Below, piece after piece: positions 536 through 58,100 of a stretch of DNA of 64,000 nucleotides. Each line of letters begins with the position of its first letter. Position 1 is the stretch's first letter. The notes beneath the pieces were generated by a model. It was not told the DNA's origin. It saw only the letters and a program-made list of their open reading frames with translations, and did no database searches. The DNA is from Deuterostichococcus epilithicus (lineage: Eukaryota; Chlorophyta; Trebouxiophyceae; Prasiolales; Stichococcaceae). A program made the position numbers and the translations under genes. The DNA lies in NCBI GenBank assembly GCA_033439295.1, contig JAVTLE010000004.1, positions 1,488,012 through 1,552,011 of the forward strand, written 5' to 3'.

Positions 536-3500
536 ATGCTTCGGGGATTGCAGGATGGCTGCTGCCGGGCGTCCAGCCGGACAGTGTGGCTGGGCATCGT
601 CAATCAACTGCATTGCGGAGCAGCAGCAGCGTCAGCTGTGATGTGCTCAGTGTCTGCCAGAGACGTGGCCGACAAGGTACAGCCAGGACGTGCGCATCCA
701 CTGACAGCGGCATTAGGCCGGTGGCGAGACTTCAGCAGCATGCCAGCAGCTAGCGACGGCAAATCAGACCCTTTCACCGAGCAGATTGCCGAGCTGGTCC
801 CGGACCACTCGAACAGCTTGGCTCACCATCTGCCAGGTACCTCACGGCTGACGCCGCCACACACTCCTCCACAGTCGCTGCTGCAGCTCACAGAAAGATC
901 GCATCATCATGCAAACCATCGCGTCAAGTCATACATGTGATGGTCCGACGTCCCAATGCCCCGAGCGGATCGCTCCGCCTGCAGGCGGCGAGGTGCTTGA
1001 CGGCAGCGCCGAGGCCGAAAACGCCGCGCTGGCAGAGCCGCAGCGGCGGCTGCTGCAGGCGGGCATCGTGGGCGCGCCCAACGCTGGCAAGTCCAGCCTG
1101 ACCAATGCGCTGGCGGGCCGCAAGGTGGCAGCTGTGTCGCACCGGACCAACACGTCGTCGGCGGCGCGGCTGGCGACATTCACCGATGGCGGCGCCACGC
1201 AGGTGGGATCCTTGTTTTCTGGGTTCTTGACCAGGCCGCAGCGCAGCTGTTTTCCATGGCGTGGTGCTGCTGGATGCAGATTGGCAGCCGCCAACCTGCA
1301 GCCGTGCAGGTCGTGCTGCGGATGTCCGCCGCGGGGCTGTGGCCGCTGTTGTCACTACATGAGTGAGCTGGCTTCGGCCTGCCACCGCAGCGAGACGGCT
1401 CTGGCATGGCGTTTGGCACGATGCCGGCTGCGGCAGTGCGCAGCGGACTCACACACGATGTACCGCGAGGTATATTTCAGAAACAGGAAGACGAAAGGCG
1501 AGCGAACTCTGTCCATTGCCTGTCTGGTCTGCGACTTTGCTCCTAAACCCTGGCGCGTCATGCCTGCGCTCAGGTGGCGGTGTATGACACGCCGGGCGTG
1601 ACGAGCGTGGTGCGAGGGCGCGAGCAGGGTACTCGGGTCCAGGGCGCCTGGCAGGTGGCGCAGCACTGCGGCGCCGTCCTGTTCCTGGTCGACGCCGAGC
1701 GACAGGTGCGCAGAGAGCAGCATTCTGGCATGGTATCTACTTCGTGATTACCCAGTTCAAGCGACTCAGAGGTTGGAAAGTCGTATGAGGCTTCAGGCGA
1801 GGGTGCCTCGCCTGAGGGAGAAGGGCATTGAAGCTGTGCCTGGGGGAGGTCGAGGCTGTGGCAGGCTGGGTGTAAGGTGCCACGCGCAGCTCGCACCCGG
1901 CTGCTGTTCCTTGTGGCGAGCATCGGAGGGTTTCTGCAGTCCTGATTCCCAGGTGGACAGACTGGCGCACCGCCAGAGTGGCTCCCAGCAGCGCGGCTGC
2001 TCAACCTGGGAGCCACCTCGGGTGTCAGCTGTCCACATTGCTTTTGATCATCCGTCAAACCCAGACCATGCGTCTGTTGACAGTGGCCCCACCAGTAGAC
2101 GGTCTGCGTCGCAGATCATTCCCGTGAACTTCACGGGCACATCAATGTGCACCGCGCATGGCAGGCTGTGTTGCCCTGATGCAGCTGGGGCAGCCCGACC
2201 CGCGGGTGACGCGGCTGGCGGAGCAGCTCGAGGTGCGGTGGGCGGCGGCGCGGGCGGCGGCGGCGGCGGAGGCGGCGGCCCTGCCGCCGCCGGACTCGCA
2301 GCCGCCGTGGCAGGGCGACCCGCAGGAGGCGTCAGCCGGCGGCGGCAGCGGCGGCGCGCGTGTGGAGGGATTCTCGGCGGCGCTGGTGCTGAACAAAGTG
2401 GACCTGATTGTCGAGCCGCGGCGGCTGCTGCAGCTGGCAGACAACCTGTCGAAAGCGGCAGGTGTGTGAGTATGTTTTGACTGGCGGCTGGCTGCCATCA
2501 GATGTAAGCCATCAGATATTTAGAAAAGACGCCCTGCTGTGGCTGAGCATCTGCACACTCGTTGATGCCGCCCAAACCCCCTGCGCACTGCTCCTGCACC
2601 AGCAATGGCCTGCAGCTGCAGCTGCGTGTCACCTGCTGATGCAGCAGAACGCGTACCTGGCTGACTTGCCGCTGTTGACACTGGCTCCCGGCACCACAAC
2701 CGCAGGCGGCGCTTTCGAGGAGGTGTTCATGACGTCAGCGCTGAGCGGCAGTGGCGTGGATGAGCTGCGGCAGTACCTGTTCGACAGGTGACTATGGAGT
2801 TCGGGGTATCGAGCGCGACTGCTTGGCTGCAGCTGATCGACGAGTTGGTCAAGCGAAGCCTGCACCTCGAATGCGTGTGCCGTGATGCCTGGCAACAAAG
2901 CGCGTCCCCTGCTGCTCGCTGTGCCCGCCCCTCGGGGTGGCTGCCGGACGTCAACATCAACGACTGTGCCGCAGCTCGCTCAGGCCTGCCACTTTCGATG
3001 AAAGCTGACTTCATCAACGCTGGATCGATTGTCCTGTTGAACAGCACACTGGAAATCTTGCAGCGCGCGTCCTTCGGAGTGGCTGCCGGACGGCTTCTCC
3101 GACGACAGGGTGGCCGCCGCGGCGGACCTGGCCGTGGAACTGGTCAAGGAGCAGCTGTTCCGGCGCCTGAGCGGGGAGCTGCCCTACGAGCTGGAGCCGG
3201 TCCCCACGGAGGCGCGCGAGTTTGCGGCCAACGGCGCGCTGCTGCTGAAGCAGACCATCTTCGTGCGGTCCGAATCGGTGGGTTCCTTGTGGAGTTGAAT
3301 GAAAGTTACGATGGCGTGCATGTTGAGTGATGGGACGTGCGACTTTGCCGCCGGCAGCTCGCTGCTGCTGAAGCAGACTGTCTTCATGTGCTCGGACTCA
3401 GTGCATTGGCGATGGCATTGTCTCGTCTACTTGTTGATTACAACGACAACATCGCAGGCTTGCAGCGCAGGAGGCAACGCGTAACAGTGTAAAGCTGGGA

Positions 3501-4370: not shown

Positions 4371-7300
4371 ATGGGCTCGTCAGTGGTGCTGGCCACAGCA
4401 GGCTATGACCACACTATCAGGCAAGCTCCTTGCGTTGCGTCGGCTTCGGTGAGGATGTCTGGATTTGTTTATATTCTTGAGGAGGAATATCACTGTTTGC
4501 TGCAAGACTGGTCAGGACACGAGCCAGAGGTAGCGCGTCGGGGTGTCTGTGGAATTGACGCCGTGTGCTTGACCTGCAGGTTCTGGGAGGCTACGAGCGG
4601 CATCTGCTATCGCACGCTCCAGTTCGCAGACTCTCAGGCGGGCCTGCAGTCCAGCCAGCGATGCCTGCCTCAGCAACGTTGCTTGCCCTGCCGTGCCAAC
4701 TGGCCGCTTCGACACCAGCCCTGCATGTATACGCCCTGCTGCACGTCAGACTTCACAACATGCATCGAGGGAATACGATGAAGACCTTTCATTCACCGCG
4801 GCAGGTCAACAAACTCGAGATCACAGCCGACAAGCAGCTGCTGGCGGCGGCGGGCAGCCCGGCCGTCAAGATCTTTGAGGTAGCGGGTGGCGCGGCGCAG
4901 CCTATCCACAGCTTCGACGGCCACACCGGCAATGTCACAGGTGTCACGTCTTGCAGGCATGCACGACATGCTGGTCTGCACTTCGAGGACAGCATCTTGT
5001 TGGGTGGGTGCCCTCTGCATGGTAATCAGACAGAGGCAACCTGCCAAGGACCAGCCGGAACTTCGGCCTTGTCCGCGCAATTGACCCCCGGCACAGCTTG
5101 CGCCGCCCTGCTGCTCTGCAGCGGTGGGCTGCGAGAAGCACTGCAATTGGGTGTGGCCAAGAGCAGAAGAACCACGAGTGCCTGCAGACCGTGTGGCCCC
5201 TTTGCCAACCTGTAGCGGTGGGCTTCGAGAAGCACTCCAAGTGGATGTGGACGGCCAGCGAGGACGGCACCGTCAAAGTGTGGGACGTGCGCGCGCGCGG
5301 TTGCCAGCGGGAGTACGAGAGCCGCGCTCCCGTCAATTGCGCGGTGCTGCACCCCAACCAGGGCGAGCTCATCTCGGGTGCGGTAATCGATTCAACGATT
5401 CTATCTTCTGGCAACAGATTCTGCTCCTGATCTGAAGATTCGACGCGGCTGCAGTGGGGGCGCGCCTGGCGTGAGGGGCATGCACTGCAGCGGGCTGCGC
5501 ATGCAGCATGCGGCGACAGATGTGGCCTCAGCCAAGCGCCTCGCTTACTGCTGGACCAAACATTTGTCAATCGCCCGCTGCAGGCGATGCGGCGGGCAAT
5601 ATCCGGGTGTGGGACCTGACGGCAGGCGCCTGCTCCTGCGAGCTGGTGCCCGAGGTCGGCACCCCCGTGAGGTGGGGACGCGCCGCCTGCCAGTGTCCAG
5701 CAAGGAATGGACTCGCAGGACCCGCGTGTGGATAGCAGGCCGAGCATGGGACAAAGCCTGGAGGCGCTGATCGCTTGACTGCGCCGATGCGCGGCTGATC
5801 GCCCGGGGTGCACGTCCGCATGCATGCGAGGGCCTGCTTGCCGGTGCACCTCGCAAGTCGTGCTGATGTTGGCGCCAGACAAAGCCGCCATGTCAGCCAG
5901 GGCTGCAGCGGCAACACGGTGGCTGCGGCCAACAATGCAGGATCTCACACTTACATCTGTTGTAAGTGCATGTTCTGGTAACATGCTGCCACACCTACAC
6001 AGGAGCCTGTCGGTGGCCCTGGATGGCAGCATGGTGGTGGCAGCCAACAACGCAGGCACTGCCTACGTGTGGCGCATGCTGCGCGGCGCCAGCGTCACCA
6101 CCCACTTCGAGCCGCTGCACAAGCTGCGGGCGCACCAGGGTGGGTTGTGCAACGTTCTTGTGGTTTGCCTGAAATCCCGTTTCTGTGCTGCATTGGCATG
6201 GCACTTGCACGAATCCAAATCCACAAGCGTCTGCAGGCACAGCGCTCAATGCTTTGAACCCTAATCCTTAGAAGCAGCTCAGTGACGCAGCTTTGCTGCG
6301 GCTCCATGCCCGATGCGTCCTGTGCAAGTCTGCGAACCTCGCGTCTCTGCTGTTGGATCAAGATCGTGACTTGCCACCACAGAGCAGCCTGCGCAGGCAG
6401 TTTCCAACCGGTGTTGGCCTGCGCGACGCTGTTGTCACACCACAGGCTACGTGCCCATGGCCCTGCTGAGGCCGGACATGAAGCAGTTTGTGCTAAGTCT
6501 CGCTGTCGTTCCGACCATTGCAGCTTACCCTGCCGCAGGTTACGTGCTCAAGTGCTTACTGAGCCCGGACATGCGGCAGCTGGCCACAGTGAGCTCCGAC
6601 AAGACCATCAAGCTGTGGAATGTGGACGGCTTCACCCTGGACCGCACCCTCACCGGTGCGCGGCTCAGGGTGTCGCGGTTGATCCAGGGGTTTTGGAGAC
6701 TTCCTGCGGCTGCACGACGACTCTCTGTGTTCAAGTTCATCGCAGAGCTGTTGACTGCCTTGTGTTGCCGGCCCCGCTGCGGCACCTGCAGTGCCGCCTT
6801 GCACTGTATGAAGAGCTTGCCCAGAAGGGTGCAGCCAGCTGAAATGCGATCGTGACTTCAGCGTCGACCAGCAGTCTGCTGCCTGATGCGCTCTCACGAG
6901 CACTGGAGGCAGCTCAGGCAGCCGGGTTATCTCCCCTGCCCTGGCGCTGCCAGGCATGCCGGCTGTTGCTTTACCCGTCCTGACAGCACCTGCTGAGACG
7001 CGGACACTGCTCACACACTGCTGATGTCATGCCCGCTGCTTTATTTATATTTTTTCCCCTGGGTGCAGGGCACTCCAAGTGGGTGTGGGACTGCGTGTTC
7101 TCAGTGGATGCAGCATACTTGGTGACAGCCAGCTCCGACTGCACCGCGCGGCTGTGGGACCTGTCCAGCGGCGACGCCATCCGCGTGTACAGCGGCCACC
7201 ACAAGGCGAGCCCAACCCTTCGTTGGAATAAATTCATACCATGTGACTGCCGCAATAGCAGCGTTTCGATGCTCACGTGTGCTGTGGGGAAAACTTGGTT

Positions 7301-7684
7301 TCTGCGGCTGTGGGACCTGTCCTGCGGGGACGCCATCCATGTGTACAGCGGCCACCACAATTCCGTGGCCTGTCAGATTTCCTGATCGTGAGCATGTTAC
7401 CCACGCAACACTCCACCTTTTGGCGCGCCACTCCACTTGTCCTGCGATCATCAGTCTTGTTCCTTATACTCACACTGGATTGCACCATCCATCTGTGGCG
7501 AAGACGCCCGAAGGCCGTGCTCTGCTGCTGTGTCTGCTGCTGGGCGGCAGACGTGGGGAGCGTTTTGTCGAAGCTGCAATGTGGGCTGAGGCGTGTGCCA
7601 GGCGGGGCGCAGGCGGTGGTGGCATGCGCCCTGAATGACTCAGCCATCGAGGGAGCGCCTGGCGGCCACCCGGAGGGCGGCTAA
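4371..7684 (+). CDS. LST8: LST8, WD40 subunit of the TOR kinase complex
   Basis: LST8 is a seven-bladed WD40 propeller that binds the TOR kinase domain and stabilises TOR complexes. Nine exons close in frame (318 codons), the usual family length: 4371-4420, 4580-4637, 4805-4940, 5216-5377, 5584-5671, 6003-6139, 6539-6655, 7069-7205 and 7613-7684. Family landmarks include [14 protein letters not shown] at the N-terminus, [54 protein letters not shown] and [12 protein letters not shown] near the end. Introns 1, 2 and 8 need GC donors (after CAG, CAG and AAG); the other five use GT. Four introns carry decayed copies of neighbouring exon ends. The start codon agrees with the short N-terminus of the family. 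Confidence 0.95.
5111..5158 (+). repeat. Decayed copy of the LST8 exon 4 start with acceptor
   Basis: It matches about 5206-5260 at an offset near 95 bp, including the AG acceptor and the CGGTGGGCT start. The reading frame is lost downstream. Confidence 0.8.
5906..5960 (+). repeat. Decayed copy of the LST8 exon 6 core
   Basis: It resembles the part of exon 6 encoding [11 protein letters not shown] (about 6028-6072), with several substitutions. It lies wholly inside intron 5. Confidence 0.7.
6441..6500 (+). repeat. Decayed copy of the LST8 exon 7 start with acceptor
   Basis: It resembles 6533-6595, offset about 93 bp. A CAG acceptor precedes a GCTACGTG start, against GTTACGTG in the real exon. 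Confidence 0.8.
7303..7361 (+). repeat. Decayed copy of the LST8 exon 8 end
   Basis: It closely matches 7147-7205 (GGCTGTGGGACCTGTCC onward) at an offset of about 156 bp and sits inside intron 8. The real copy ends HHK followed by a GC donor. This copy diverges just at the donor position. Confidence 0.85.
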
Positions 7685-8329
7685 TCTCAACCCAGCACAA
7701 GAGGCGTGCCGCGCATTGCGGTGGTGCTGCGGCAGCACGCAGAAATGCGCCGGCGTGCTCGCTGGCGTGCGGCGGCGGCATGCTTGCGGTGGGGTCAGAT
7801 GGCTCGCAGTCTCGGCAGGGGAGGCAGCAGCCCGCCTCGTGACACCGCGCTGCTGGCGGCAGCAGCTGAAGGCCTGCACTGGGTTTGCATGATCCGTGCT
7901 GAGGGTGCAGTGTTTCACTTTACATGCACTTGCGGTCGGTGCTGCAGATGCTCCGACGTGAGGGGCCTTGCTCAGACCAGTTGCTCCGCGGGATGTTGAG
8001 GGTCCGGAGTCTGACTTGGTGCAGTTCAGCACCGGGGGGTGCATCAACGTGCAATTGTGAGTGGTGCTGCGCGGACATGCAATATGTTATGATGGCTGCT
8101 TCCGTGTTTGGTGACACTGGTTCAAGATACCATGCGAAGCAGAGAATCATGAACAGGTTGTCCGTCATCCCCAGGCACCACAGACAGATGCTGATTTGCT
8201 CTAAGTTGCTGGCCGACGGTGCAAACGGCACGCCTCATTTGCACCACATCTTTGCTCCTGAATGGACTTCTTATTGCATTGCAGATTCCCGCTGACACAA
8301 AACTGAAACCTGTGACTTCGTGAGCGCCT
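7685..8329. other. Intergenic, LST8 to composite pseudogene
   Basis: No coding exon or RNA gene was recognised. I looked for resemblance to the flank upstream of the F-box/SNF2 start (32650-33100) and found none that I trust, so the left edge of the duplicated segment is probably near 8330. Confidence 0.4.
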
Positions 8330-9740
8330 GAGATGGAGCTCTTCACTTGCTGCAGAAGACGTCGCTGGTGCCATTGTGCCCGTGCATGCATGCTGATATA
8401 TAACCACACTGCGCAAACTCGGCAGTCCGACCAACTGTGGCAGTTGCGGCGCAGGCAGACGCTGGTGGACAGGTCGACTGACACGCTCGCGGATAGCAAG
8501 GGTTGCCCCCTGCTGCAGGCGGTCGGACACCTGGTGCGTTGCATCAATAATAGCTCGGCATTGCGCCGCCAACCGCCGATCTGGATCAGATGATTGGGCC
8601 AGTGCAGCTACTGTGCCGGCAATGGCCAGCATTGTCTCTCAGGTCCATCATCCTATATCACCCTGCACTGCTGAGGGCACTCTAATCCCCTAAGATTATG
8701 AGAGAGCTTTGTCTGATTTTGCACTGACTTTGCGCTGTGAGCTGTGCAGGCGTTGAGCAGTGGCCTGGGTGCAAGAGGCCGGGTGGTGGCGCACCGTACA
8801 GGGGACGTGCTCGTGCGCCTGGATATCTACTTTCCCCCTCTGGTGAGAAGCTTTCAGCCCACAATTTTAAGTGCCTTGGCCAGCTCCTAGCTGTGGTTCG
8901 TGTTCACAGCTGGCACACTCCTCACCAATTCAAATGTTGAGCCGCTGCTCGAGCGTCAGCGCGGCGCCAGTCATGCAGTTGCCTGCGTTCATCAGCACAA
9001 AGCCGCAATGCCAATAGCGGGTGCACCGCCGAGGCAGGCGGTTTGCGACGCTGCAACTGGCTTACGTCTGGAGGCCAGCGACTAGCCGAACACTGCAAAG
9101 GCCGGGAACCCACCAGGCGGCTGGCACCCTTCGCGCAGGCTGCGGATCGGGGTGCACCTCTGGAAGCGCAGCACGGCTGCCGCCTTGTATTCGGCCACCT
9201 GCATTTGCTGGGCGAGGCGCTGCAGCCCGAGACTGCACCGGGCGGCAAAGTCGACACAAATGCAGCAGCAGCGGAGGGGGCAAGCCGGGGTGCAGAGGCT
9301 GCCGCAGGCGCCTGCGAGCAGCAGCCAGCGGTCAATGCGCCAGGTGGAGAATGCCTCTGTCGGTTGGGAGGGCCTTTAGTGGCCTTGCCAGCTGTGCGAC
9401 CAGGTCGTCGAAGACAACAATGATGGCACATGGCGTGCATCATATGAGCGACAGGCGCCAGGTCCCCAGTGGATCCATCACGCTGCTCTTTGATTCCTTG
9501 CAGACTGGCGCAGTGCTTTGAGGAGCTGCCGAGCACGCACATGCACTCCGCTGCCATGCCGCTGCCGCCGCCGCTGTCAGCAGGCGCCGCACCAGCCCCG
9601 CAGCTCGGCGGCGGCACGTCAGGCTGCACAGCGGACGGCGTGCAGCCGGCTGCCGCGCGCCGGTGCCACGGCGGCCCAGCCTGATGGCGCTGCCGCCGGA
9701 GGTGCTTTGCGGCATACTGCAGGTGACTGTCTGGTTCTGT
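8330..9740 (+). pseudogene. Partial copy of the F-box/SNF2 gene, 5' part
   Basis: This stretch is an inverted, diverged copy of about 32560-31150, introns included. Matching blocks include the frame around RQTLVDRS (near 8455), the exon encoding VVAHRTGDVLVRLDIYFPL (near 8765-8850), and the start of the F-box reading LPPEVLCGILQ (near 9685-9722). In the segment just before the F-box the frame is shifted relative to the parent, giving a stop at about 9682. The copy ends just after the ILQ codons and their donor, so the rest of the F-box and the whole SNF2 part are missing. It is best read as a truncated genomic duplicate rather than a working gene. Confidence 0.85.
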
Positions 9741-9761
9741 CCGGCCTAATATCAAGTCCGG

Positions 9762-18400: not shown

Positions 18401-18523
18401 GCTCCCTTCGGAACATTGGCGCGCTCCACGCCAGGCTTGGCCACTGCAGGTGACCGACCGACATCAGCACGGTTCGCTGCTGAGGGTTAGTCGTCAACGA
18501 GCCCTGCAGCATACCGGAGCCGT

Positions 18524-18571
<48 letters not shown>

Positions 18572-20980: not shown

Positions 20981-23900
20981 TCACCCTGTAGTGGACCCCC
21001 AGGCGCAGCCCGCCACGATCTCGCGGCTGCGGACGCCGGTGCAGCGGTGCAGCGCCCGGAAGAGCGTGTTGCGCGAGCGGCGAGCATCGCCCGCCAATCG
21101 CGGTGCCTCCGCCTGGCCGGCGGCGGTGGCGGCCGCTGTACCCAAAATGTCCTCTTCCGCTGTGCCCTGTGGTTGTTGCATGCAGAGGAAAGTCAGACAC
21201 TTGCAAGCCTGCAGCTCCTTGTTCGCACTCTCGTACACCTAGATCGCCCTGTGAGTGTGTGCAGGAAAGTTCCTGTGCTATTCGCTGCGTCCGTAGTGCT
21301 AGAGCAGTCAAACTTTCTTTTCGTCCTCGCTGGCGCAGCCGCGCCCCCGTGAAGAGCATTTCCACAGCGATCTAGCATCGAGTTCATGCACCGCATGGAC
21401 TTGTGCAAGCAGCCTGAGCTCGCAGTCCCACCCGCACGGCTGGCATCTTCATGGACATTGGGCTTGGACACCCAAGTGGCGCCCAAGCGACTCGGGTCCA
21501 AGCAAGTGCGATCAGGAGCAACGTGTGAGAAAGGGGCATTGTGTGAAGAGTTCAGACCCGCATGACCAGAGTTCCACGCTTACAGGCCGCGCCGCGCCCA
21601 TGCGGCGCCCAAGCATCTCGGTCCAGAGCAAGCTCGGTCTCAGGAGCGAAGTAGGAAGCATTCGCACCCGCATGACCAGGGTTTCCACGCTTATGGGCCG
21701 CGCCGCGCCCATCCGGTGCGCGCGGGCCACCACCTGCGACTCCAGCGCCGGGTCGGACAGCGGCTCCATGAGGAACACGGCGCTGGCGAAGGACAGGTCC
21801 AGCCCCACGCTGCCCGTCCCGTCCATGACCAGCACCGCTGCACAGGTGAACAGGAGCGGCGCTGAGTCGATAAATTGCAATGAAGCTTAGTAAGTCTGCA
21901 AGAATTTGGCAGCTCCATTAGGCACACGGTGCTGACGAAGGACAGGTCCAGCCCCACGCTCCCCGTATTGTCCATGACCAACACAGCTGCACGGGTGGGG
22001 AAGCGGTGTCGAGTCAGCATTTGGCGGCTTCCTGAGGCACAGAGCTCCGGCCAGAAAAATGCTCGTATTCCTAAGGTGAGCACCTTCGGGTAGCCCGGCT
22101 CACGCGGTATGTGGGTCGGCCACATCTGAACAAGGTTTTCGGAAAAAGAGCATGACTTCTCAAAACAGTGGGGACGCACTGCAGGCGGGATCGTCCTGGA
22201 AAGCCGCGAGCGCAGCGGCTTTCGTGTCGGTCTTGTGGTGCGCCTGCAGCATCGCGAAGTGCACGCCGCCAGCCGCCAGCGTCGCCGCAATCAGCTGCAG
22301 GTGCATCCAGAACTGGCTGAAGATAATGGCCTGCGCGCAGAGGGGACGATACATATTGTCAGGCTCGTGCGTTCAGGGATTTGCTTCGTCCAGAGTTCCT
22401 GCTGCTGGGAGGGTGAGCGCCTCTCAAGCCATCGATCGCAAGCCGATGCCTGGCCCAGCGTTGATAGCCACAACCATATGCACATTCCAAATGTTCGGCA
22501 GCCTGGCAAGTGCTAAAGTGTCCGGCACATATGAATGGTGCATGTGAGGCAGGTTGATCATGGTTTCTCTGAATGCAGCGGCAATATCTCCCACAAGAAC
22601 CTCCCACAGCATGCACAGGAACAACCCAATCCTGGCATGCTGCACCTTGATCGGCGGCTGTTGAGCGGCAGCGTCTGCGGTTGGCTGCAACGCAACAGGC
22701 ACGGGCAGTAGCGGCGCCCCGACCGCCGCATCGCCGGCCACCGCAGCCGCCACGCTGAACGCCGCGCCGGCAGCCACGCCCCCAGCGGCGGCCGAAACCC
22801 CGGTCGCGCCGGCAACGCTGCCTGACTCTGCCTCTGCGGCGGCACCGCCGCCCGCGGGCGCTGCCGCAGCGGCCTCGTCTCTGCCCGCCGCCGCCCGGCT
22901 GGCGCGAGTGGCCGCNNCGNCGNGGCNCCGNTGGCGCGCAGCCGGCGCAGGAGGTAGGCGCACTTTGTGGAGCGCGTGACCTGCCAGTTGGCGGACCACT
23001 CGCCGCCGCTCAGCCCCACCGCGCCTGCGGAGGTGCGGATGACTTGAGTTTCTCTGGGCCATCCAGCTCAGTCTCATGGCCGGTCAACAAGTCGCGGCCA
23101 TGCAAATCAGGAGCATGGATCTGCGCCAGCCGGGAGTGCAGTCACATGCCTGTCACTCACAGCGCAGCCGCCGGCAAAACCACCGCCAGCCGCCACAGCT
23201 GGCGCTTGAGACGGCAGGCGGCGGCTGCATTAGCATGCAGGGCCCAGCAAGTGTACAGGCATGGGGCTGATTATGCAGACCTTCCTGCATTGCGGTAGCA
23301 CGGCATGGCAGGGAGGCGGCAACAGCGGGGGCCTGGCCGGGCCGGCTGCTGCGGCGCACCTGCAGATGACGTGACAGTGACAGGCATGACAGGCACAGCA
23401 TATCATCTGCATTGAGCAAAGCGGCGGCGCACCGCGCTGCACGTAGGACGGCTGCCACTCAATGACCTCCTCCGGCACTGGCCACTTGGGCCGCGGGTTG
23501 GTCTTCAGCCGTGCCGGGTCGCTCACAGCCTGCATGCGGTACGCCTGGCGGCAGCCCTCCAGCGGGCACGCCTCCCTGCAAGGCACGGGCTTTCGTAAGG
23601 TGCAGCTGCCAGTCTGAATCGGTGAGTCATGAAGGGTATGCCCACTGACAGCCGTGCAACAGGCGAGCATCTGTTTGCAGCGGGAATTGCGCCGGAGTGA
23701 CTGCCAGCATGGAGTCGGCAACGAACAGTGTCACGCACACTCGTGGACCTGCAGCATCCTGCAAGTATGGTCTGCACTCTGCGTGGATACAGCGGATGTG
23801 CCTGCCCTGGAGAAGGCACTCTTCATTCCATATGGGAGACCGGAAGCCGAGGTAAGTACCTGTCAGCGCGCGCGCAGGCGACGCACAGCAGGTGCGCGCA

Positions 23901-26900
23901 GGGCGTCACCACCAGCAGGCGTGCCGGCGCGGCGCAGGCGTCGCAGGCGCCGCCGTGCCGCAGCGCCACCTCGACGCGGGACAGCGGATGCCGCGGCGGC
24001 AGCCACGGCGGCGATTTTGCCTCCGGCATCGGTAGCGCCAGCCGCGCCGCCAGCAACTCCAGGGTTTCCTTCAGCTGAGGCTCCACGGGCGTCAGGTTCT
24101 GGTTGCCCGCCACGCAGCACGACAGCCTGCATGTGAAAGGCTTCCGGACTCAGCGACATTTGAAGGAATGGAAATGCTGCCTTGGCCATGGCAGGGGGCG
24201 GACCAGGTGCCGCGGCTATTTCAGATGTGTCGGTGTAAGGAGGCTCCGGCGAGCGGCAGCTGGAGTGTGATCTCAAGTCATGCCGCAAATGTGCTGTATC
24301 GATGCTGCGAGCTTCGCAGCATTTCATGTCCAGCGTTGATGTGCAACCTTGAGACCCGCTTGGAGATTGCCGAGTTGACTACAGTGTACTTGACTGTAAC
24401 AGCAACGGCTGCCGCCAAGATCGCTGGTTTGATGGTTTGATCAGCTGCCAATGGTGTTTACGCATAAGTTCTGCCGCGAGGGAGGAGGCCTGGCAGCACG
24501 CAGGCGAATATCTCGCGGCCCTACTCGGGAGCTGCACCTGCTCTGAACGGGAGCGGCTCAGCTTGTGTGTTGCTTCTGCTGCTCGCCACTCAATATACAA
24601 GGCTATGGTTGATATCACAGTTGGATGAGGCGCACTTGACGTTTGCCAGGTACTCGCGGCCCCACTTGGAGTTGCGCTCAGCCAAGATGCTCTCGTAGTG
24701 GTCCTCGTCGCCCCAGTCTGCCAGCAGCAGGTTGAGCCCTATTACCTCCACCTGCGCCCGAAGAAGCGTGAGAGTTTCTGCAGGTTTCAGGGCGCAGGCG
24801 CCGAGATGGGTGGCGACGACTCCGCCTCGCGCGGCAGTGCCAGCCGCCAGCAGGGCAACGCAAGAGGCGGTGCACTGTGGGCCGGACGGCATGGTGTCCA
24901 GGGTTGAGCATATCAGATGCAGCGGCAATGCTTGTCAGCAGGTTTCCCAGTGACTGTATCATGTGCAGCGGCGATTGCCGAGACGTACTTCTCGTGCCAT
25001 CTCCATGGTGCATCGACAGGAAGCGCACCAGTTCGTTGTAGCTGCGAGCATGCTCCTCCTCGAAGTCCAGCAGCGTCACCTGCGGACACAATTGCGCAGT
25101 GTGATTCAACCCCCAAGTCAGTGGAATATGTCGTAGAGCCAGTCCCAAGTGAGTGCCAGAGTGCGGGCGCCTGCAGTTCATGGCACAGCCTCAGCAGGCC
25201 GCTGGCCCCGCAACCGCAATTGCTCCAGCAGATGCAGGCAGGCCGAGCGATGGACGCCGCAGCGCACAGCCGCACGGTGACCGTGGTTGCAGCACCAAAT
25301 CAGGTACGAGACAGCAGGACGGACGCGCACAGCCACGGCACCAAGCGGGTTAGGGTTTAGGGTACAGGGTACAGGGCGGGACTGAGCAGATGGCGCGCTT
25401 TCACGGCGCACATCAGGAAAGACGGCAAACCAGAAGGAACCAACTGCACACCCACACACAAGCATGAGGATTGCACCTGGCGGGTGCAGGGCGGGATGGT
25501 GCGGATGTCGGACTTTGCGGCGCGGATCATGACCTGCCGCAGCAGCGCCATCAGCCGACCGCGGCCCTCGGCACGCCCCGCCTCGAAGGGCCTCTGCACC
25601 GCCTCCTGCGGCACGTTGACAGCAGGCGCTGGGCTGACGGGCGACGTGCCTCGATGCAGCGAGAGGCTCGTGCGGGTCTTCAGCAGCGGCAGCAAGGCCA
25701 GGCCCCGCACGTCCGATGCGTCCCGGGGCAGCAAGTCCATGCGCCTGCTTCCCTCTCCGCCGCCACTTCACATGCCGTCTCACACCGCGCAGCTGACTGA
25801 CGGACAAGAGAGCGGGGTGACCGTGCTCACGTCCCACAGGCGCTTGCCGGCAGCGCCGCCGTACGGCCGGTGCCGCAGGAAGGTCAGCAGCGGGTGCAGC
25901 CGCGCCAGCTCCGCCGCGCCCGCGCCCGGCGCCGGCGTTCCGGTCACAACCCACCGCCGCTCCGCCCGCAGGTTGGCCGCCATGGCCAGCTTATTGGTCA
26001 GCGCCGCGCCGCCGATTTTATGGCCCTCGTCCAGGATGACGCGCAGCCAGTGCACCTGCGCGCCGCAGGGTGTGGAGTCGGTGTGTAGGGTTTGGCTGCT
26101 ACGGCCTGCTCGTCCGCCAGCGCCGCGCCGCAGACGCTGCGCGCCCTCGTGTAGCACTGCCTGCGGCCAGGAGAGATGCATATATGGGTTTAAAAACTCG
26201 AGCCTCAGGCTTTTGGGGTTGCCATTGTGGACCACGGGGGAGCTTTGCGCCTTCCAGCATCAGTCCAGCTGATTGAGGCCGAGCAAGGTCGAGGCACAGC
26301 TGGCTGCTTCTGGACCAGTGTGCCGGGACCCAAGCACCGGGTTGCATACCCGTCGCACGACCGGCGCAGCAGTGTTGCCAGTAGGAATGGCGAGCAACTC
26401 TTCCCTCATACTGGTGTGCAGCAGCTGTCTCGTGCGCCGTCTGTCGCTGTCAGTGACCCCAGATGGCCTTTCAAACGGCGGGCAGTGCCTGTCTAGCTGG
26501 CTCTGGAGCCAGTCGCAGACGGTGGCACGCCTGCAAGCCACGCAGTGGCAGACCCTGGGATCCAGCCGCAGACCCTGCGGTCGCGCTGTCGCCACTGTCA
26601 CCTTTGCCGAGGATGGGGAACATTGTGCGATCGTGCGGCAGGGTCTTCCTAAAGGGGCCCGTCAGGCGCAGGGTGGCGGCGCCAGAGTCGGCACCCCATG
26701 CATATATCCGAACCGTTGCCCCTGACTGCCCTACCGTCATGGTGCGATAGAACACTCGCTGAAATCGCTGGTGAAGGTCCTCAGATATGCAGCGCACGCC
26801 CGACGCAGCGGGGAGGCCGCGGGGAGGCTGCAAAGGGGCACACTGCAAACCTTTCCTCACCGCGGTGGTGCACGATTCCTCGCTGAGGAGCGCACCTGCC

Positions 26901-29900
26901 GCAGCGGAGAGGCGGCGCCAGAGTCAGAGCTCCACTCGCCGCTGAGCCGCGTGAAGGTGGTCAGCACCACGTCGTGCTCCCATGCCAGCGCTTGCGGCGC
27001 CGCCTCCCGTGCCGTGCCCTGCACATGAACGGGCTGGCGTCAGCCTCTCTCAAACTCGCCCCCAGGTGGCGAGGTGGGTGACCGCCGCATCCCCAGATGA
27101 GATAGACGTCGCGATCCAAAACGTGTCCTCTTGTGCAGCTGTGCGAAGAAACAAACGGGCATGCACGGCAGCTAGGCATGCTTGGTGATCCTGACCGGGT
27201 TGACGGCCGTTACGCTGCCAAGCGCACCTCGCCCAGCACGGCAACGCGGAGCATGCCGCCGCGCGTGTGGCTGGCCAGCTGGTGCATCCAGTGCCCGATG
27301 AGCGGCGACGGGACCACGATCAGTGTCGCGGCCGACATAAACACCTTTGTCGGCGCCGCCGCGGGCCCTGCACATGAGGCAGCATGCATGGCGGCCCTGC
27401 CTTTAGACGAAAGCCGAGTCGGATAAGGAGCTCGAAGGTCTGTGATCTGCCATCAGAAAGTTAAAACGCCTTCGAAAAGGCCTCCAAAGCACCCAAGAAG
27501 CAGCAAGGCGGTGACAGCCGCTGGCGCTGCAGCTCACCCCCAGTCGTGCTGGCCTTGCTTCGGTGCACGTCACTACATCGCCGCCAGCATTGATCCTCAT
27601 GTACAGATTCGCTGTTTCCTCCTGCGTCTATGCTCCCACCTCCTTCCAGCGCCGCTTGCAGCGCACCGGCGACTTGCCGCAAGCGCGAAACCGACAACTG
27701 GTCACTCTTATCTTTTTGAGAATTGGATAACCTCACGCAACCGCATCGGCTGCCCAGCTGCGTCCACTTCTTCCTGCATCCGCGGCAGCCTCCAGCCGCA
27801 GTTGCACCATCACAAAGCCCCAACACCAGGTTGGCACCCACGTTGCTGGAAGGAGACTTGAAGACGTATTGCACCCTATGCCTCGCCGCTTTCCAGAGCC
27901 GCCTTCACCGCGAGTGCGTCCTTCAGGATTGCACTCTACATCCAGCCCCGCTCTGCAGCCTGTCCCCCCGCCGGCTCCTGGCGCCGTCTGCATCGCCGCA
28001 GCGCTTTCCAGCCGCAGGTGCGCCATCTATCTGCCGCAACACCAGCCCCAACATCTCGGACCCTTGACCTCTCTGGACTGCCACTGTTATACTGTCCGTG
28101 CACACCTGCTTCCAGCGCCGCCTGCAGCGCCGCAGCATCTAGCCGCAGCCCCGCCACCGCCGCCGGCTGCACCCAGCGATGCAGGTCTGCCATGGTGGGC
28201 GACGGCGGGTGGTCGCGCGGCGCCAGCTGCGCGGAAGGGGACGACTGATTGGCAGTCTGTTGAAAAAACCCGCTGCAACGGTCCACTGTGCTCAAGGACA
28301 TCTCAGGAGGCACCTTGCCTGCGACCGAAACGACCGGGAGCTCTCGAAGCGAGAACTCTCGAGGCTGAGCAGACTGAAGGGCAAACGTCGACCGGCACAC
28401 GACTGCAGCGGGCGACTCGGCATGCAGGGACTGGTCTGGTGCCCGCATGTTCATGGGCGGTGCGGCGCCCACCACGAGGCCGCGCTCGCCGCGCCTGCGC
28501 GGCCGCCTCCCCTCCTCGAGCCCCAGCGCCCGAAAGAAGTGTGCATAGTCGCCTGGTTCCCGGCAGGTGCGCGGCACCGACAGGCCCTCCCGCGCCAGCA
28601 CCTGCGAATAGAAAGAGCACACTTGATTCGCTTGACAAACCGCCACCAACAGTACTCGTAGAAGAAGCGCGCACGGCTGTTGCAGTCCAGACACCGCACA
28701 AGGCGCACGTTGTCGCCCGACTCCTGACAGGCGCAGCACCTGCGAAGCACCTGCGAAGCACGACAAGCTTCCTATCTGGCAGAGTTCTGGCACGGAACAG
28801 GGGTTCCACCTCTGGGTCCTGCCGCGCCAGCCACCACGCGGCGGAGTGCCGCAGCGCTGTCCCCGGGCAGGCCGCCAGCGCCGCCCGGGCGGCCTTGACG
28901 TTGGCCGCCTGCCCCGCCGGCTGACCCGGCGCCACAAAGCCGAGGTGCCCCGACTCCTCGTCGCCGCCGCAGGGCAGTGCCGCGGCCACGCCGGCGGGCG
29001 ACGTCGTGGCGCCGGCGCCGAGAGCTTCTGCGCCTCCAGACGGCGCGCCCGCCAGCGCGCTGCCGGCCGCTGCGGCTGCGCCCTCGGGAGATGTTCGTGG
29101 GCTGCGCTGGGAGCGGGCGCTGCTGCCGCCGCCGCCCTTGGTGCTTGGCACCCGGTCCCCGGTAAGGGCGTCCAGCTTTGACGTTGGGAAGGTGGTGCCG
29201 GCATCTTCGGCAAAGCAGACGCGGCGGCGGCGCTTGGCCGGCGGCGGGGCTGGCGGCGGGGATGCCTGCTCGTCTGCAGGGGCGGCCGCCGCGGCTGATG
29301 CCACGTGCCACTCTGCTGTGTCGCTGCTCTGGGACGAGTTGGCCGCCGGCGCCGCGGCGGCACCAGCATCCGCGGCGTGCATGGTTGCAGCCCCCGCAAT
29401 CATCGCCCCGTCGGCGGCCGCGTCTGGTGCTGCAAATGCGGCGGCGCCGTTTGACGCGGCTGTCGGCGCGCTCCGCTTCAGGGTCGAGGCCTGTTGCGTC
29501 CGCCCGCCGACGGTGCCAGCAGCGCTGCTTGCCAGGCTGCCTGCTGGGCATGAGCAGCAGTGCTGTCCTTGGCGCCGTGCCCTGGGCTGTGCTGCCGCCT
29601 GTGGCACTAACACCTCTGGCTGGGCTGCTCCCGCAGGCATCTGCTGAGGAGGCGCTGCTGGCTGTGCTGGCTCTGCCGGCTGGCTGTGTTGCGACACCTT
29701 TGACAGGAGCTGCTCGGGCGGCTGCGTGGCTGCCCGGTTAAAATCCAGCGGCGCTGGCAGGGATGCGCAGCTGGGCAGGCTGCCAGAGCGCCGCCGGCTG
29801 CGGTGCGGCGAGTGGAAGCAGCTGGCCGGCTCGTCTGCACAGCGCGACACGTTTCGGATGAAGAGACGCTACATGACGCTGACACACACCATTTTCGCAA

Positions 29901-43500: not shown

Positions 43501-44043
43501 CCGGTGCGCATTTTGCGACCTGCGGCCGTCAGAAGCATACTATGCCTTCAAGAGCAGGAGGCGCTGCTGCGGTGCCTGGGTCAGGTTCCCCTGCCTGGGG
43601 CGCAGGAGGCCGAGCAGTCTCGAGCATGTGCATGAGCGGTGCTGTTTCGCCAGTCAGCAGTCGCTTGGCTGCCAATTCGCGCGCTTTGTGCCTTGTGCCT
43701 TGATGCCTCTGGCGCCTACCTGCTCTGCTGTACCCGCAGCATTGAGCAGGCCGAACGTGTGCTGTTGGAGGTGCCGAGCGCTGGGCGCTGCCGCTGCTGT
43801 CCAACCACCACCTGTGAAGCGTGCACGCCTGACGCTTGTTGACCTTATACAACACTAAAACCTTGTGTCCCGCTCCTGCAGCATCGGCCAGGCGGCAGAC
43901 GCGGTTGTGGAGGTGCCGAGCGCGGCGCTGCCTGCGGCTCGGTGTCTGGAACCGCAGCTCGCGCAGCGGCTGGAGGCGCTGGGGCTGCGGCCCATCACGA
44001 TCCGCGCCGCTGAGCCGGCTCCGGCGCGCCAGCTGGCCCAGTG
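40535..44043 (+). CDS. Conserved protein of unknown function, possible plastid targeting
   Basis: I do not recognise the family. Exon 1 (ATG 40535 to about 41035) is Ala/Arg/Ser-rich and low in acidic residues, like a transit peptide. Supported exons are 41287-41388 (NLVVFGGGVASTLAAFLVHSVFE), 41584-41725 (AVFVWLPGTTDSDFDRAQYL), 41979-42175 (VVVFDGLHAEDLP) and 42344 to about 42401. Further coding blocks are near 42540-42680 (EQLGASYAAAVEAA), 42933-43030 (LPNWDWVPDAEA), about 43290-43378 (MVLALQAFAASVSFVEG) and 43398-43490 (GPTAALAQAEAVVC). The last exon runs from about 43881 to the stop at 44041-44043. Junctions between 42401 and 43398 are not fully phased, and the end might be a separate gene. 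The nucleotide-binding-looking VVFGGG is only a suggestion. Confidence 0.6.
43734..43800 (+). repeat. Decayed copy of a last-exon start
   Basis: It matches 43876-43940 (acceptor GCAGC, then AT..GCAGGC and GAGGTGCCGAGCG) at an offset of about 142 bp. It lies in the preceding intron. Confidence 0.8.
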
Positions 44044-52010: not shown

Positions 52011-52181
52011 TCTGGCCTCATGGCCTGTGCCAGCCTGCGATCGGCTGCGCAACGCTCAGTCATCGGCCGTGCCGCGGTAGCCCTGTGGCCATGCCTCAGC
52101 CTCTCCTGGGTGAGGCCAGCGCCCGACGGCCACGCCCGGTGCCGAGCGGGGAATTTCCGCCGGTCGTTTCTTCAGCGCTGG

Positions 52182-55100
52182 TCACTTCTGGCGGCGCTGA
52201 TAGAACAGCAGGTACGCCTGCTGCGTCAGCACCTGCACACGCAGAGCGGCGCCGGCCGGGTCAGCGCCGCAGGCCGAAAGCTCAACGGCGGTCCAGCGGC
52301 ACTGTGCTTGAGGCACAACGCAGAGCCTGCCAGGCCGCACCTGGGCTACCGTGTCGGCAGCATGCAACATCTCATGTTGGAGGCGCATGACGCGCCTTGC
52401 AACTCATGGGCGCCGAGGCAGCGGCGTAGACTCATAGCCGCGGTGTCACCGCCCGCTCTGCGACCGGCAGCGCATCTGGGCGGCGGCACAGTTACGCCTG
52501 GCGACGTCCTGCCCAGATGGGACCAGGGCCAGGGCTGCGGGCTGCGGGCTGGGGTGTGTGAACTGTGTGAACATGGGGGGCGTCTGCCCACCTGGCTGGG
52601 CGGTACCGAGGTCACGCTTGCGTCGTCGAAGCGCAGCCAGCGGCCATCCAGCTGCTTGACGTCGGACGTGTAGTGGCCCGCGCCGGCCGCCTTGCCGTGG
52701 TGCGACACAGTGGCCACCTGCGGGCAGGAGTTATATTACTCAAGTCCCTACGTCAAATCCCATAAGATTGTAATGTTACAGATGTTGTATGTTATTGCAT
52801 ACTAAAAGTAGGACAGCACGCAAGTGGGGGCAGAGCTACGAGACCCTGAGGCAGTGCCCAAAAAAGTCCTCGACTGGCACAGATGTGCTGCCAGCGGCGG
52901 TGATGCTGCCAGACTGAAAGCACCGGCTGCAGCATCTGTGCAGCATGCATTGCGCTTCAGCGTCGCCAATGCCGCGCAGCACTTTGGCGCCGCCTCCCGC
53001 ATATGCGGCGCAATTGACGTGCGGCCCCTGGAAGCTGGAAGCTGCCGGATGCGTGCAGCAATCACCGTTCTGCTTGCAGGCTACCAGCGGCCTTAGGGGT
53101 GAAACAATTGGGGGCGTCAAGCCATGCACGCTGATGACATGAGGAAAAGAGGGCATACAGGAAATAAACTACAAACCCCTAAAGCCATCATGCCCAGACA
53201 GTGCGGCAAACTCCGCGCAGTGCGGCGGCGAAGAAAGCCCAAAAAAAGCGAGAAAAGATAGGAAGGCAGGGACAGGAGGAAAGCCAAGAAGGAACAATCG
53301 GAAGGGGGCTTATGTGAGTCACGAAGAGGGCAGCACCAGGCTGTGGAGGCGCGGCGTGTTTTCTGGGCGAGAGGTTTGCAAGGTAGCTCAGATGGTGCGG
53401 CAAAATGGACCGGGGGTGCATAGATCTACATCTAAACTGCTCGCCTCGACGTCGAGCACTGTCTCTGCAGCCTCATCACTGCACGAAGTGAAACTCTGGT
53501 CGCAAGACATGAAAGGGGTTTCTTGTCCACATGGTAGAATCATTGGCGCACCAGATCATAGAGGACGCCGCGATAGTCCGGTGACGAGTCCGCCATCCAG
53601 CGCTTTTTCAAATCCAATACGTGCCCAAAAGCGACCGGCTTGTGCAGCTTGCCCAGGCCTGCACATAGCACAGCTGGAGGTTAAGAACTCTGTATCAGCA
53701 TCATATCGCCTGAATAAGACCAATGTATGTTGAGAGTCGCGCCAGATGGTTCCCAACCTCTCCCTTGAGCTGACCGGCTTGTGCAGCTTGCCCAGGCCTG
53801 GACGCAGGGTCATTGGGGGGCACATGGCCGCGAGGACCATGGGCCCAACAGTTGACTAGGCGCATTGATATGACATACGGATCAGTCATGTTCAGAGGTA
53901 CTGCAAGGACTTCGAATACCCTAGACTGTCCGATTGGTTATCTTTCCGATGACAGCCGCAGCGGCCCGACTGTCGCCAGGATTCTGCGTCAGCCAGTCGG
54001 CACAGGGGTGCCAACTGGGCGTGAATCACCCTGCATCCTTGGGAGCGCGCAGGGGCGGCTGTTCAGGCGCAAGTTTGACGGCGCGCCGGCCACGGGGCGG
54101 GGCGCCGAGGGCAGTTGCCCTTGCACCACCCGCCGCACGGGCGTGAACATCTGAAGCTGCAGGTTTAGATCGTGTCTTGACACCAAGGTGCTGGGCAATC
54201 GGTGGCTGATGGGGTTCTGTGTCGGATCTGGGTGGCGCACCGGCGGCGTCATAGGCGAAGCGGATGAGGTGGACCACCAGAACCGGCGGCAGCTTGAGCA
54301 GCTTGACCGTCTTGGTTGCGTCACCCTCAACGCCCTCCCGCACCTGTTGCACCAGCAACGGAGGTTCTGAGAGTCAAAACCGGAAAGAGCAAGTTCCGCT
54401 TCAGGCTGCGGCTCTGCAGCCTCGGCAGCTCGGTGGTCTTGATGGCGCCTAAAGTCATGGTCGTTCTCGCACCCACCGACGGAGTGAGCCACACAGGACT
54501 CAGATACAGGGTCTGCAAGTTGCGGCACTGGAAGCTTGGGCCGCTTTCTGATCTCTTGGAAGCGTTGCTCCGAACGTCCCTCCCGCACCTGTGGAACAAG
54601 GGTTCAGGGTTGAAGGTGCACAACGTGCCAGCACCGGCAGCATGGCCGCTCCAGAAGCTGACGGTCCCGGCGGCAACTGACAGCAGTGTGGTCTGTCGAC
54701 ATGTGACAGGGCCCATTCGACATCTGGCACTGTCGGGCACCGCATGCCCCGTAGCCGACGGAAACAATCGTGCTGCGGGTGCACCCCTCAGAGCCGTCCC
54801 CCTCGGCTTACACGCCATGTTGGGCAGGAGTTGCTCCATGCAAGTCGGTTGAAATTGCAAAGTTGCAACCCTACCTTGTAGCCGGTGATGAGCTCGGGGT
54901 GGGTGTATTCCTCCAATGCGTCCTCTACGGTGCGCACGCCGTTGGGCAGGATGTTGAGGCCGAACTCGGTGAAGGCCGCCAGCGTGACCGAGGGCTTCAT
55001 GATGCCGTGCAAGGTCACCGAAGACTTGGTGGACCCCGCAAACATGGTCGTCACCAGGCTCGCGCCGCCCTGCGAAAGGACCACACACAGCTTCGGCATG

Positions 55101-58100
55101 AGGAGCGGAGGGGCGGCACTGCAGGCTTGGTGGACTCGGCAAACATGGCCGTCGCCAGCATCACGCCTCCCTGCAAAAAGGAACACAGAGCTGCGGCATG
55201 AGGAGCAGAGGGCGGCACTGCAGGCTTGGCGGCGCCCGCACGCGTGGCCGTCACCAGGCTCGCGCCGCACTGCATTGTTGGAAAGGAGCTGCGTCAGCAC
55301 ACGACTTCGCGCCTAACGCAGCCTGCAGGCAGGGCCAGCCCTGAGGTCTAAACATGAAGCCCCAAAACCCCGGTGACGTCTCACCTGCACGTCCTCCTCG
55401 CCACGCATTGTCGACGCCTTGTTGCGCTTGCCGACGGTGGCCCACGCGCCGCCGGCGCCGGCAGGTGAGGAGCCCGCCGCGGGGCCGTCGGCGGCGCCGC
55501 CCCCGGCGGCCCGCTTCTGCAGAGCCACCAGCTCCTGCGCAGCGGAGCACAAGCCCTACTCAGCAGACGCTCTATGAAACGATGGACCCTCACAGAGATT
55601 CAGCGGGGCGGCACTTCGAACACGGTCAGAGCGGTGCGGCCTGTCACGTCCAGCATTATGTGACCCCGCGGCGCGATGCGGCGTCCGGTGTTGCGAGCGC
55701 CCCTGCGTTGCTTTGCGAATCAGCTGGGTGCAATTTCCGGGCAGGCGAAAGGGAAAACGACAGACACAATCGAAACAGGTGGCGCCGCGCAGTCCGCCGG
55801 GCGCGTGGCAGCAACCGGCGCTGCTCCTGCTCCTCTCTCACCAAGGTCATCGGAGAATGCTGCCTGCCAGCACTGGCCTCGACTCCATCACGAGGCTGCG
55901 CCAGCCCGTTTAGTCCAAATGGTCCATGCAGCGCAGAAACGCAGGCGCGTGCTCTCGCTCCCTCCCGCTCTTGCTTCTTGTTCCTTCAATTCTTTCTTCC
56001 TTTCGGGCCTTCTTATTTCGATCATTCGCCTTTCGTTTTCCCCTTTCGCTTTCCCAGAACTATTGACATATCGAGATATCGCACCATGATAATACCGCAC
56101 CTGGTGCGCATGGTCCAGCAGGTCGTGCAGGAAGTCCTGCGCGCCCTCCCGCCCCTGATCACGTTTCTTCAACATGCTCCCTCTTGGGCCTTTCGTTTCC
56201 ATTGCAGCTCTCACTTTCTCTTTCGTGCTTGCTTTCGGATACGCACCTGGTGCGCATGGTCCAGCAGGTAGTGCAGGTACTCCTGCGCGTCCTCCTGCTC
56301 CTGCTTCGCGTACGCGGCGACGGCAAAGGCGCTGGCCCGGCCGGCGCTGGGCGCCGCCGTCGGCACCGGCCGGTGCCCGGCGGGCGCGAACGCGTTGACC
56401 GTCTCCATGAGCATGACCGGCAGCAGCGGTCGGCCGCCGAGCACCGACGCCGGCGTCGCGCCCTGAACAGCATTAACGTGGGGTCAGTAGGAATCTCATA
56501 CTGTGACGAGTAAGTACATAAGTACATAAAGGCAGCAGCGGGCGGCCGCCGAGCATCGACGCCGGCGTCGCGCCCTGGAGTGCGAGGCGTTGGAAGTGCG
56601 TCAGTCGTTAATTGCGGGTTACCTACAGAGCGTGCAGAAGGGCAGCAGCGGGCGGCACCCAGCACAGACGCTGGCAGTGTGCCCTGCGGCGTTCACAGTC
56701 AAGATGTGGTTCGTCACAGGGGAAGCGATAGAAAGCAACGAGGTAGAGGCAGCAGGAGGAGCGGCGCACGCTTGGCGTCTTGCCCCAGGCGCCCAGCTTC
56801 GGCGCCGGCTCCGGCGGCGCTGCCGCCGCGGGGCCCTTCTTGACGGCGCCGCCAAGTGTCATCATGTTCGGCTTGGCGGCGCCGCTGCCGGCCGCCGGCG
56901 CGGGCGGCGAGACTGCCTCGAACTCCGCGGCAAAGGCCGCCAGCGCCGCGAGCGTCGGTGTCTCGCCGTCGTCGAGCAGCGGCGCCGCGGCCCTCAGCTG
57001 CTCCAAGAACTCGCAGAAGCAGGCGGCCCCCATCAGCGCCTGCATCGTCGACACGTCCAGTGGGTGTTGTTCAAAGGACAGACAGACAGTTGTGGTGAGC
57101 GGGGATTGCTGTTTGGGTTTGCCCACCGATCGGCAGCAAGGTCACGGCTCGCGGAAGCGAGTGCCGCTCATTGGCACGTGCGGCGTAGTGACCGGCAGCC
57201 TGAGCGACAGATCGAGATCGTCATTGACGCATGTGCTGTGGAGGGCGTTGTTGCATGATGGCCGACGATGCCGCCAAGCGTCTGGAGGTTTGAAGGCCTC
57301 CCCGATGTCACGGCAGAAGCATGCGCGCTTACCCCAAGCAACCGAGTGGCCTCCGTTGTGCAGCGCATGAAGGTAACGTTTCTGGAAAGCAACGCGGCTT
57401 TCCCCCCAAAGAGTCGGGGGGCACGCCATTTCTGGAAAGCCGCGCCACTTCTTCCAAAAAGTCGTTTGTGCGCGCCTGCAGCGTGGCGTTCATGAAGCAC
57501 AGGTTCCCCGGGTTGGTCAGCCCGCGCGGCTCCATGCGCCGCCCGCTGCTGGGCGCCGTCCGTTCCGCCAATGCGGCCAGCGCCCTGCAGTTCAGGGGGC
57601 TGCTTGATCGAGCACCGCAGAGCCGGCTGAGTCGGCAGGGTCAGCAAGGAGGTAAGTAGTGCATGCTCCGGCACTCCTCGTGAGGTGTGGTGGAGGTTGT
57701 CGGGGAGGGTATGGTAGACAGGGCTGTGTGGCGACAGGTAGCTTCCCTGTCGCAGTTGTAACCGGTCTGACGCCCATACGGCCAGACCCTGTCATCGCAG
57801 CATGCTCCAGCACACGATGGTGCAACAAGTGGACAGAGCGTGACGGGGCGGGGCCCCGGGGGGAGGGAAGAAGGGACCTGTGTGCCTCAGGAGACACATC
57901 CTGAGGTGGCGGTTTGGGCGCCCCAGCCGTCGGCGCCTCCGGAATGTTGGGCGCCGCCTCTGCCGCCTTGGCCGGCAGGAAGGCGTCTGCGATCTCAGAG
58001 TCCATGCCCTGCGGGGTGCATCCAGACCGTCATGCTGAATTCGGTCAGGTGTCAGTGTGCTGAGGTATGGAGCTTACACCGGCCCTGCGCACGAGCTGCT

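Follow-up and report, generated by a model that had tools for sequence, protein, structure and literature searches.

Partial copies of exon edges in the neighbouring introns of the green alga Deuterostichococcus epilithicus

Introns of the green alga Deuterostichococcus epilithicus contain partial copies of the edges of the exons that they adjoin, and these copies are real and present beyond the 64-kb stretch of DNA (the window, meaning the whole of that stretch; 63% GC, on contig C4) for which an initial annotation, made from the letters alone, had proposed them. When predicted exon edges were aligned to their own adjacent introns, 35 of 1,178 (~3 in 100; gapped score of at least 32) were matched, 22 of them among 592 acceptors and 13 among 586 donors, compared to 0 of 4,712 when these edges were paired with introns from other loci and 2 of 1,178 with inverted introns. 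An excess was also seen in the window without any use of gene models, where ungapped direct pairs scoring at least 16 numbered 26 at offsets of 50-400 and 1 at control offsets of 5000-5350. Offsets of direct repeats peaked at 80-160 bp over all the 340 kb sampled, and the distance from the copy to the true splice site (d) was 92-156 bp in 34 of the 35 cases and 189 in the other. The comparison of exon ends with their own introns that the initial annotation had proposed thus gave an excess over controls in a sample of ~340 kb. Its range of offsets, 90-260 bp with most near 100-150, is slightly too wide, while its count of at least twelve cases in the window was borne out by 14 edges with a copy in the gapped test and the 56096/56242 pair as a fifteenth (absent from that test, presumably as a result of having its copy modelled as a small exon).

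The sample comprised the window and 25 random 10-kb stretches (314 kb) together with eight kinase loci, from a source genome of 46.8 Mb in 21 contigs. Gene models were ab initio, from an exon/intron hidden Markov model self-trained over five rounds from twelve hand-read seed exons; its output was 30% coding and 53% intron, with a median intron of ~220 bp and splice consensus sequences CAG/GTGCG (donor) and YGCAG/G (acceptor). GC donors were assigned to 12% of predicted introns, including the LST8 exon end at 7205, an unusually high share which may be over-called. In the main test, run on exons no shorter than 30 bp and introns no shorter than 100 bp, the first or last 80 bp of an exon was aligned with gaps to the nearest 400 bp of its own adjacent intron, omitting 4 of 1,182 junctions at window 13.5-17 kb. 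The direct-pair, dinucleotide and non-adjacent-exon counts were ungapped and differ from it accordingly. The model of LST8 ends wrongly, as by eye its last exon starts near 7614, which makes intron 7206-8355 overlong in the length tests; spliced with the last exon read by eye, LST8 residues 4-304 align to 2-302 of the 303 of solved LST8 without an inserted block. The protein is 86% identical to its best match, 82% to that of Chlorella sorokiniana and 81% to that of Micractinium.

The copies and associated exons of the window are as follows (percentages are identities; z is the similarity of the intron halves of a pair; Y is the spacer between exon and copy).

3064..3277, + strand: ERA-like exon whose two edges are each copied into the flanking intron
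2923..2950, + strand: decayed copy of the start of exon 3064-3277 (d=142, 86%)
3336..3399, + strand: decayed copy of the end of exon 3064-3277 (d=123, 78%)
5122..5156, + strand: copy of the start of LST8 exon 5216-5377 (d=94, 89%) with a CAG of its own before it
5910..5941, + strand: copy beginning 22 bp in from the start of LST8 exon 6003-6139 (d=115, 81%)
6448..6486, + strand: copy of the start of LST8 exon 6539-6655 (d=93, 77%)
7304..7360, + strand: copy of the end of LST8 exon 7069-7205 (d=156, 93%), with no visible sharing of either flank (z 1.9)
7205..7303, + strand: spacer Y between LST8 exon 7069-7205 and its copy, matching only itself in a genome search
21558..21608, - strand: copy of the end of exon 21668-21837 (d=111, 90%); the intron part is shared as well (z 10.8), which makes this a true tandem duplication
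21909..21984, - strand: copy of the start of exon 21668-21837 (d=149, 87%)
25367..25418, - strand: copy of the end of exon 25477-25605 (76%)
27981..28025, - strand: copy of the end of exon 28106-28226 (83%)
43766..43792, + strand: copy beginning 26 bp in from the start of exon 43882-44044 (d=142)
53772..53797, - strand: copy of the start of USP exon 53552-53658 (d=139, 26/26 identical), flanks not shared
53665..53771, - strand: spacer Y between USP exon 53552-53658 and its copy, matching only itself in a genome search
55016..55274, - strand: array of ~2.5 units of 99-101 bp, with three copies of a USP exon start
56096..56157, - strand: copy of the end of USP exon 56247-56462 (d=146, 90%), partly modelled as a small exon
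56531..56574, - strand: copy of the start of USP exon 56247-56462 (d=112, 95%)
56632-56656, - strand: older third copy of the start of USP exon 56247-56462, ~110 bp beyond the copy at 56531..56574

Exon 21668-21837 resembles the ERA-like exon in having both edges copied into its two flanking introns. Over the 25 sampled stretches the copies were spread unevenly (0 of 5,000 shuffles were as uneven), and their density per gene rose with the GC content of third codon positions (GC3; rho 0.36, p=0.003) and with median intron length (rho 0.40, p=0.0009). The densest gene seen was a glutathione-reductase-like one, named by eye from its sequence (stretch L025, 1726-7246), with 5 copies in 12 introns.

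The copied piece was 18-89 bp long (median 51), a length unrelated to that of the exon, and the match reached within 10 bp of the exon edge in 29 of the 35 cases. Copies were direct in orientation, lay in adjacent introns and in 34 of 35 cases fell short of the full exon, the remaining one being a predicted exon of 51 bp which is one of the units of the 55016 array; whole exons copied with their frame kept, as in tandem exon duplication or mutually exclusive exons, were not what was found, and there was no informative case for the copying of whole small exons. In edge profiles (30 of 42 rows, after removal of eight arrays or ambiguous rows and of scores below 18) the exon side was mostly 70-90% identical near the edge. 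On the intron side identity reached background by about +6 in donors (from 0.92 at +1 to 0.42 at +6, 12 cases) and by about -20 in acceptors, with a weak excess of homology remaining; by maximum likelihood the homology overhung into the intron by 0-13 nt (34 cases), and by up to 20 nt in ungapped alignments.

The exonic copy (46 +- 14 bp) and the spacer (75 +- 16 bp) varied independently in 29 cases, and a unit of fixed length was rejected as d was no tighter than the sum of an independent copy and spacer (standard deviation 20.4 vs 21.5, correlation -0.09). Strict scoring, which also missed the true 21558/21668 duplication, found no source within 3 kb for spacer and decoy flank in 34 of 35 cases, the exception being the 55120 array. 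Two of 14 spacers were searched for genome-wide and each matched only itself, so that a mobile or introner-like spacer was rejected for both. By eye, nothing clear at the inner boundary pointed to a product of recursive or cryptic splicing.

The splice junction had been proposed to be duplicated as a unit, in simple tandem copies, and this was not borne out for most cases by comparison of the intron halves (the exon of the 55120 array was omitted from this comparison and from the decay, overhang and splice-site-strength tests). For acceptors, the intron halves of a pair were no more alike than mismatched ones (z 0.10 +- 0.15, 20 cases), and for donors the similarity (z 1.56 +- 0.79, 13 cases) was driven by the one true tandem duplication at 21558/21668. 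Simulated duplications, given twice the exon divergence together with insertions and deletions, had mean z values of 11.7 and 12.8, with 90% and 85% of them above 3. The intron half was not detectably shared in 32 of 33 cases (one z >3), in a test that by these simulations misses 10-15% of duplications, and it was also unshared in pairs with 93-97% exon identity (USP 53633/53772, USP 56419/56531 and LST8 7148/7304). Tandem duplication of a whole exon and intron unit thus found no support in most cases. Among the sampled loci there were no gene duplicates suited to a comparison of intron with exon divergence. True tandem duplications were a minority, comprising the 21558/21668 pair and the 55016-55274 array, in which intron spacers 1 and 2 look alike by eye and the outer intron does not match them. 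A separate 159-bp tandem duplication (53 x 3, 99%) lies in predicted coding sequence of stretch L026 (8295-8614) and is similar in length to the exon-edge offsets.

Introns bearing copies were long for their locus, with a within-locus length percentile of 0.78 (31 introns), and subtracting d brought this to 0.53 (p=0.58), as expected of introns longer by d than others of the same locus. Subtracting the copy alone left 0.67 (p=0.009), or 0.62-0.68 with room constraints (p 0.007-0.06), so that insertion of the copy alone is moderately disfavoured; pooled over loci, length minus d stayed slightly above background (p=0.04). Lengthening of the introns by the full repeat distance is therefore supported. 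The signature of intron gain, repeats at an offset equal to the length of the intron, was found at a score of at least 14 in none of ~700 predicted introns (control 1), and at a score of at least 8 in 21 introns compared to 14 in the control, the minisatellite region being excluded. Of the suggestion of intron gain or growth by tandem duplication, growth by about d is thus retained and gain is not.

The copies decay near-neutrally and without constraint of frame, in agreement with their earlier description as out of frame and unevenly eroded, and their graded identities (69-100%) agree with the earlier idea of a continuing process. Offsets were divisible by 3 in 12 of 35 cases, which is chance level. 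Differences by codon position were.174/.155/.227 in all ungapped pairs and, split by age,.087/.072/.134 in younger and.20/.14/.235 in older ones (pairs scoring at least 16 at offsets of 60-260, with one copy mostly coding and the other less so, without two minisatellites and the L026 duplication). In the same set splice dinucleotides were intact in 28 of 42 rows compared to 28.8 expected from decay. Decoy acceptors matched neutrally decaying true acceptors in strength (1.36 vs 1.53 expected), while decoy donors were weaker than neutral decay predicts (-0.90 vs 0.71, p=0.0003, n=13), which from so small a donor set is a lead and not a result. The claim that the copies carry splice sites holds in part, and their sites would be potential decoys: the dinucleotides are neither kept nor lost overall and the acceptors look genuine, while many copies lack a faithful site and the donors look weak.

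We tentatively take recurrent, local insertion of a repair type, adding an exon-edge copy together with filler, as the best reading of these data. Each event would add 92-156 bp, made of a direct exon-edge copy of ~50 bp, which usually ends no more than a few nucleotides from the splice site, and ~75 bp without a recognised source. A break with long staggered ends may have been repaired by fill-in at either side, leaving filler in the middle (copy, filler, copy), or proximal DNA may have been captured during repair; breaks as the initiating event and filler as the nature of the spacer Y are our inference. The added DNA would land in an intron and be spliced out, which would be why the insertion is tolerated, and the redundant copy would then decay as neutral DNA, leaving a longer intron. 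The geometry of the copies, their excess over controls, their near-neutral decay and the lack of detectably shared intron sequence in most cases are direct observations, and this reading is further supported by the dominance of adjacent exons, by the fit of intron length to d, by spacers without a source and by decoy acceptors that resemble genuine, recently retired ones.

Several observations weigh against repair-type insertion. A general repair process should copy pieces of intron too, and with random copying ~45 intron-intron pairs of the same ages would be expected; six were found, of which four are exon-edge arrays or extensions of an exon-edge pair and two are independent (offsets 61 and 216). 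Four more pairs lie in predicted intergenic DNA (offsets 56, 73, 113 and 117), which may include unpredicted genes. Sequence was not copied in proportion to its abundance, contrary to what proximal capture predicts, and repair leaves the near-exclusive use of exon edges without explanation. An intron overhang of 0-13 nt beside copied pieces of 18-89 nt is unlike random cut sites, and in 6 of 35 cases the match begins 18-26 bp inside the exon. It is demanding that the filler should serve as the new intron end each time, and in donor cases the outer site, expected to be the old donor, does not resemble one, unless it was purged. Seven other donors were weakly positive for shared intron sequence (z 1.0 to 2.4), possibly faint residual homology, and the even spacing (142/140, 95/92 and 112/110) of three arrays whose spacers are not shared suggests that they may have arisen from tandem units.

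If a unit of 92-156 bp across the junction had been duplicated in tandem in the ordinary way and its intron halves had later diverged, that spacing, the geometry and the lengthening by d would all be accounted for, and full-unit examples exist in the 55016 array, the 21558/21668 pair and the L026 duplication. We consider such duplication unlikely as the general explanation, as the intron halves fall far short of the simulated similarity even in pairs with 93-97% exon identity, and introns would have to diverge many times faster than the exon copies inside them. It is about as improbable, to our judgement, that copying is coupled to splicing, with a transcript of the same gene supplying an exon-edge piece, delimited by the splice site, that is copied into a nearby intron break; this would explain why exon edges are almost the only source, why the boundary and the drop in donor identity lie within a few nucleotides of the splice site, and why Y, as old intron, needs no source. 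GC3 is a proxy for expression in such algae, and the rise of copy density with GC3 is what such coupling would give. Intron length fits d better than the copy alone, however, decoy acceptors resemble genuine acceptors, and the copies come from adjacent exons with none, by eye, running into the next exon. Mature mRNA was accordingly rejected as the template: at ungapped scores of at least 18 there were 42 adjacent-exon direct matches (two classes) and 60 to non-adjacent exons (eight classes), 49 of the latter in one repeat block of the window and 11 elsewhere. That exon-end pieces delimited by the splicing machinery or by RNA intermediates are written back into neighbouring intron DNA is a doubtful proposition at present, but if true, such splicing-marked write-back would be RNA-guided growth of introns, with thousands of exon-edge fossils in one algal genome.

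Old tandem duplications in which gene conversion kept the exon-edge copy similar while the intron halves drifted would explain the even arrays, the tandem geometry, the exon-only block and the saturated intron halves, but the mismatches show no patchiness (mean p 0.59, 30 cases), the context of decoy acceptors is too intact for old neutral DNA, and conversion tracts of ~50 bp between heterologous flanks would be required; we regard this as improbable. The acceptor-like context of decoy acceptors might suggest that the copies are functional decoys or alternative exon ends, and this is very improbable given the chance-level frame, the near-neutral codon positions and the loss of dinucleotides at the neutral rate. 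Although the gene models are ab initio, an artefact of assembly or of gene models is hardly credible, as the excess is seen without such models, divergence is graded, flanks are unrelated and the LST8 model agrees with its solved homologue.

Other repeats in the sampled DNA include a 342-bp unit repeated 4.1 times (window 13849-15248, 99% matches), followed by a 23-bp minisatellite of ~62 units (15260-16712); inverted transposon-like copies at window 8434-12209 and 31153-38637 (roughly 73-82% identical); and many nested, mostly inverted repeats of 83-100% identity in stretch L014. An Rfam scan of the window gave no match at the gathering threshold.

Introners, or intron-like elements, are responsible for recurrent gain of intron sequence, and unlike these, which have many near-identical copies, the spacer Y was not multi-copy in either of the two cases searched. 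Daphnia neointrons are reported (PMC4202315) to have direct repeats of 4-12 bp at exon ends and DNA mostly of unknown source, for which staggered breaks were proposed. The alga is similar in its direct repeat of the terminal exon, the sourceless intervening DNA, which would be inserted as in staggered-break neointrons, and the passive growth of the intron, and dissimilar in that its copies are of 18-89 bp and an existing intron grows, whereas Daphnia introns are new; among the ~700 predicted introns there was no sign of a new intron in a formerly continuous exon. Duplications by proximal-capture repair in primates (PMC2671141) had donors of many types (intron 278 and partial exon/intron 4, of 824) and an average of 162 bp. 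They resemble the algal cases in local copying, filler and occasional exon/intron pieces without coding constraint, and differ in that the algal source is almost only exon edges, direct, adjacent and 92-156 bp away. The intron-gain models of Rogers and Hellsten likewise invoke local duplication touching an exon-intron boundary (the potato RdRp case), but in the alga no new intron is seen, the intron half is mostly unduplicated and no repeats lie at an offset equal to intron length. Fill-in by Pol alpha-primase (PMC8355091) also yields short local duplications from breaks with overhangs; the duplication there is tandem, whereas most algal cases share the exon side alone.

Judging by titles and abstracts, no report of such copies in a green alga was found among the papers listed, and the Chlorella NC64A genome paper may contain an earlier mention. 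If the sampled rate holds (35 copies in ~340 kb), the 46.8-Mb genome would contain ~4,800 recognisable exon-edge copies, and in a green alga the growth of introns could be counted and dated directly. Introns are conspicuously long in Chlamydomonas and its relatives, and the benefit of their exceeding the minimum length is stated to be unknown (PMC8226300). The precision with which exon edges are copied is a real puzzle, as a common DNA-repair duplication should not know the position of a splice site, and the copies amount to a natural experiment on the tolerance of a cell for different decoy splice sites.

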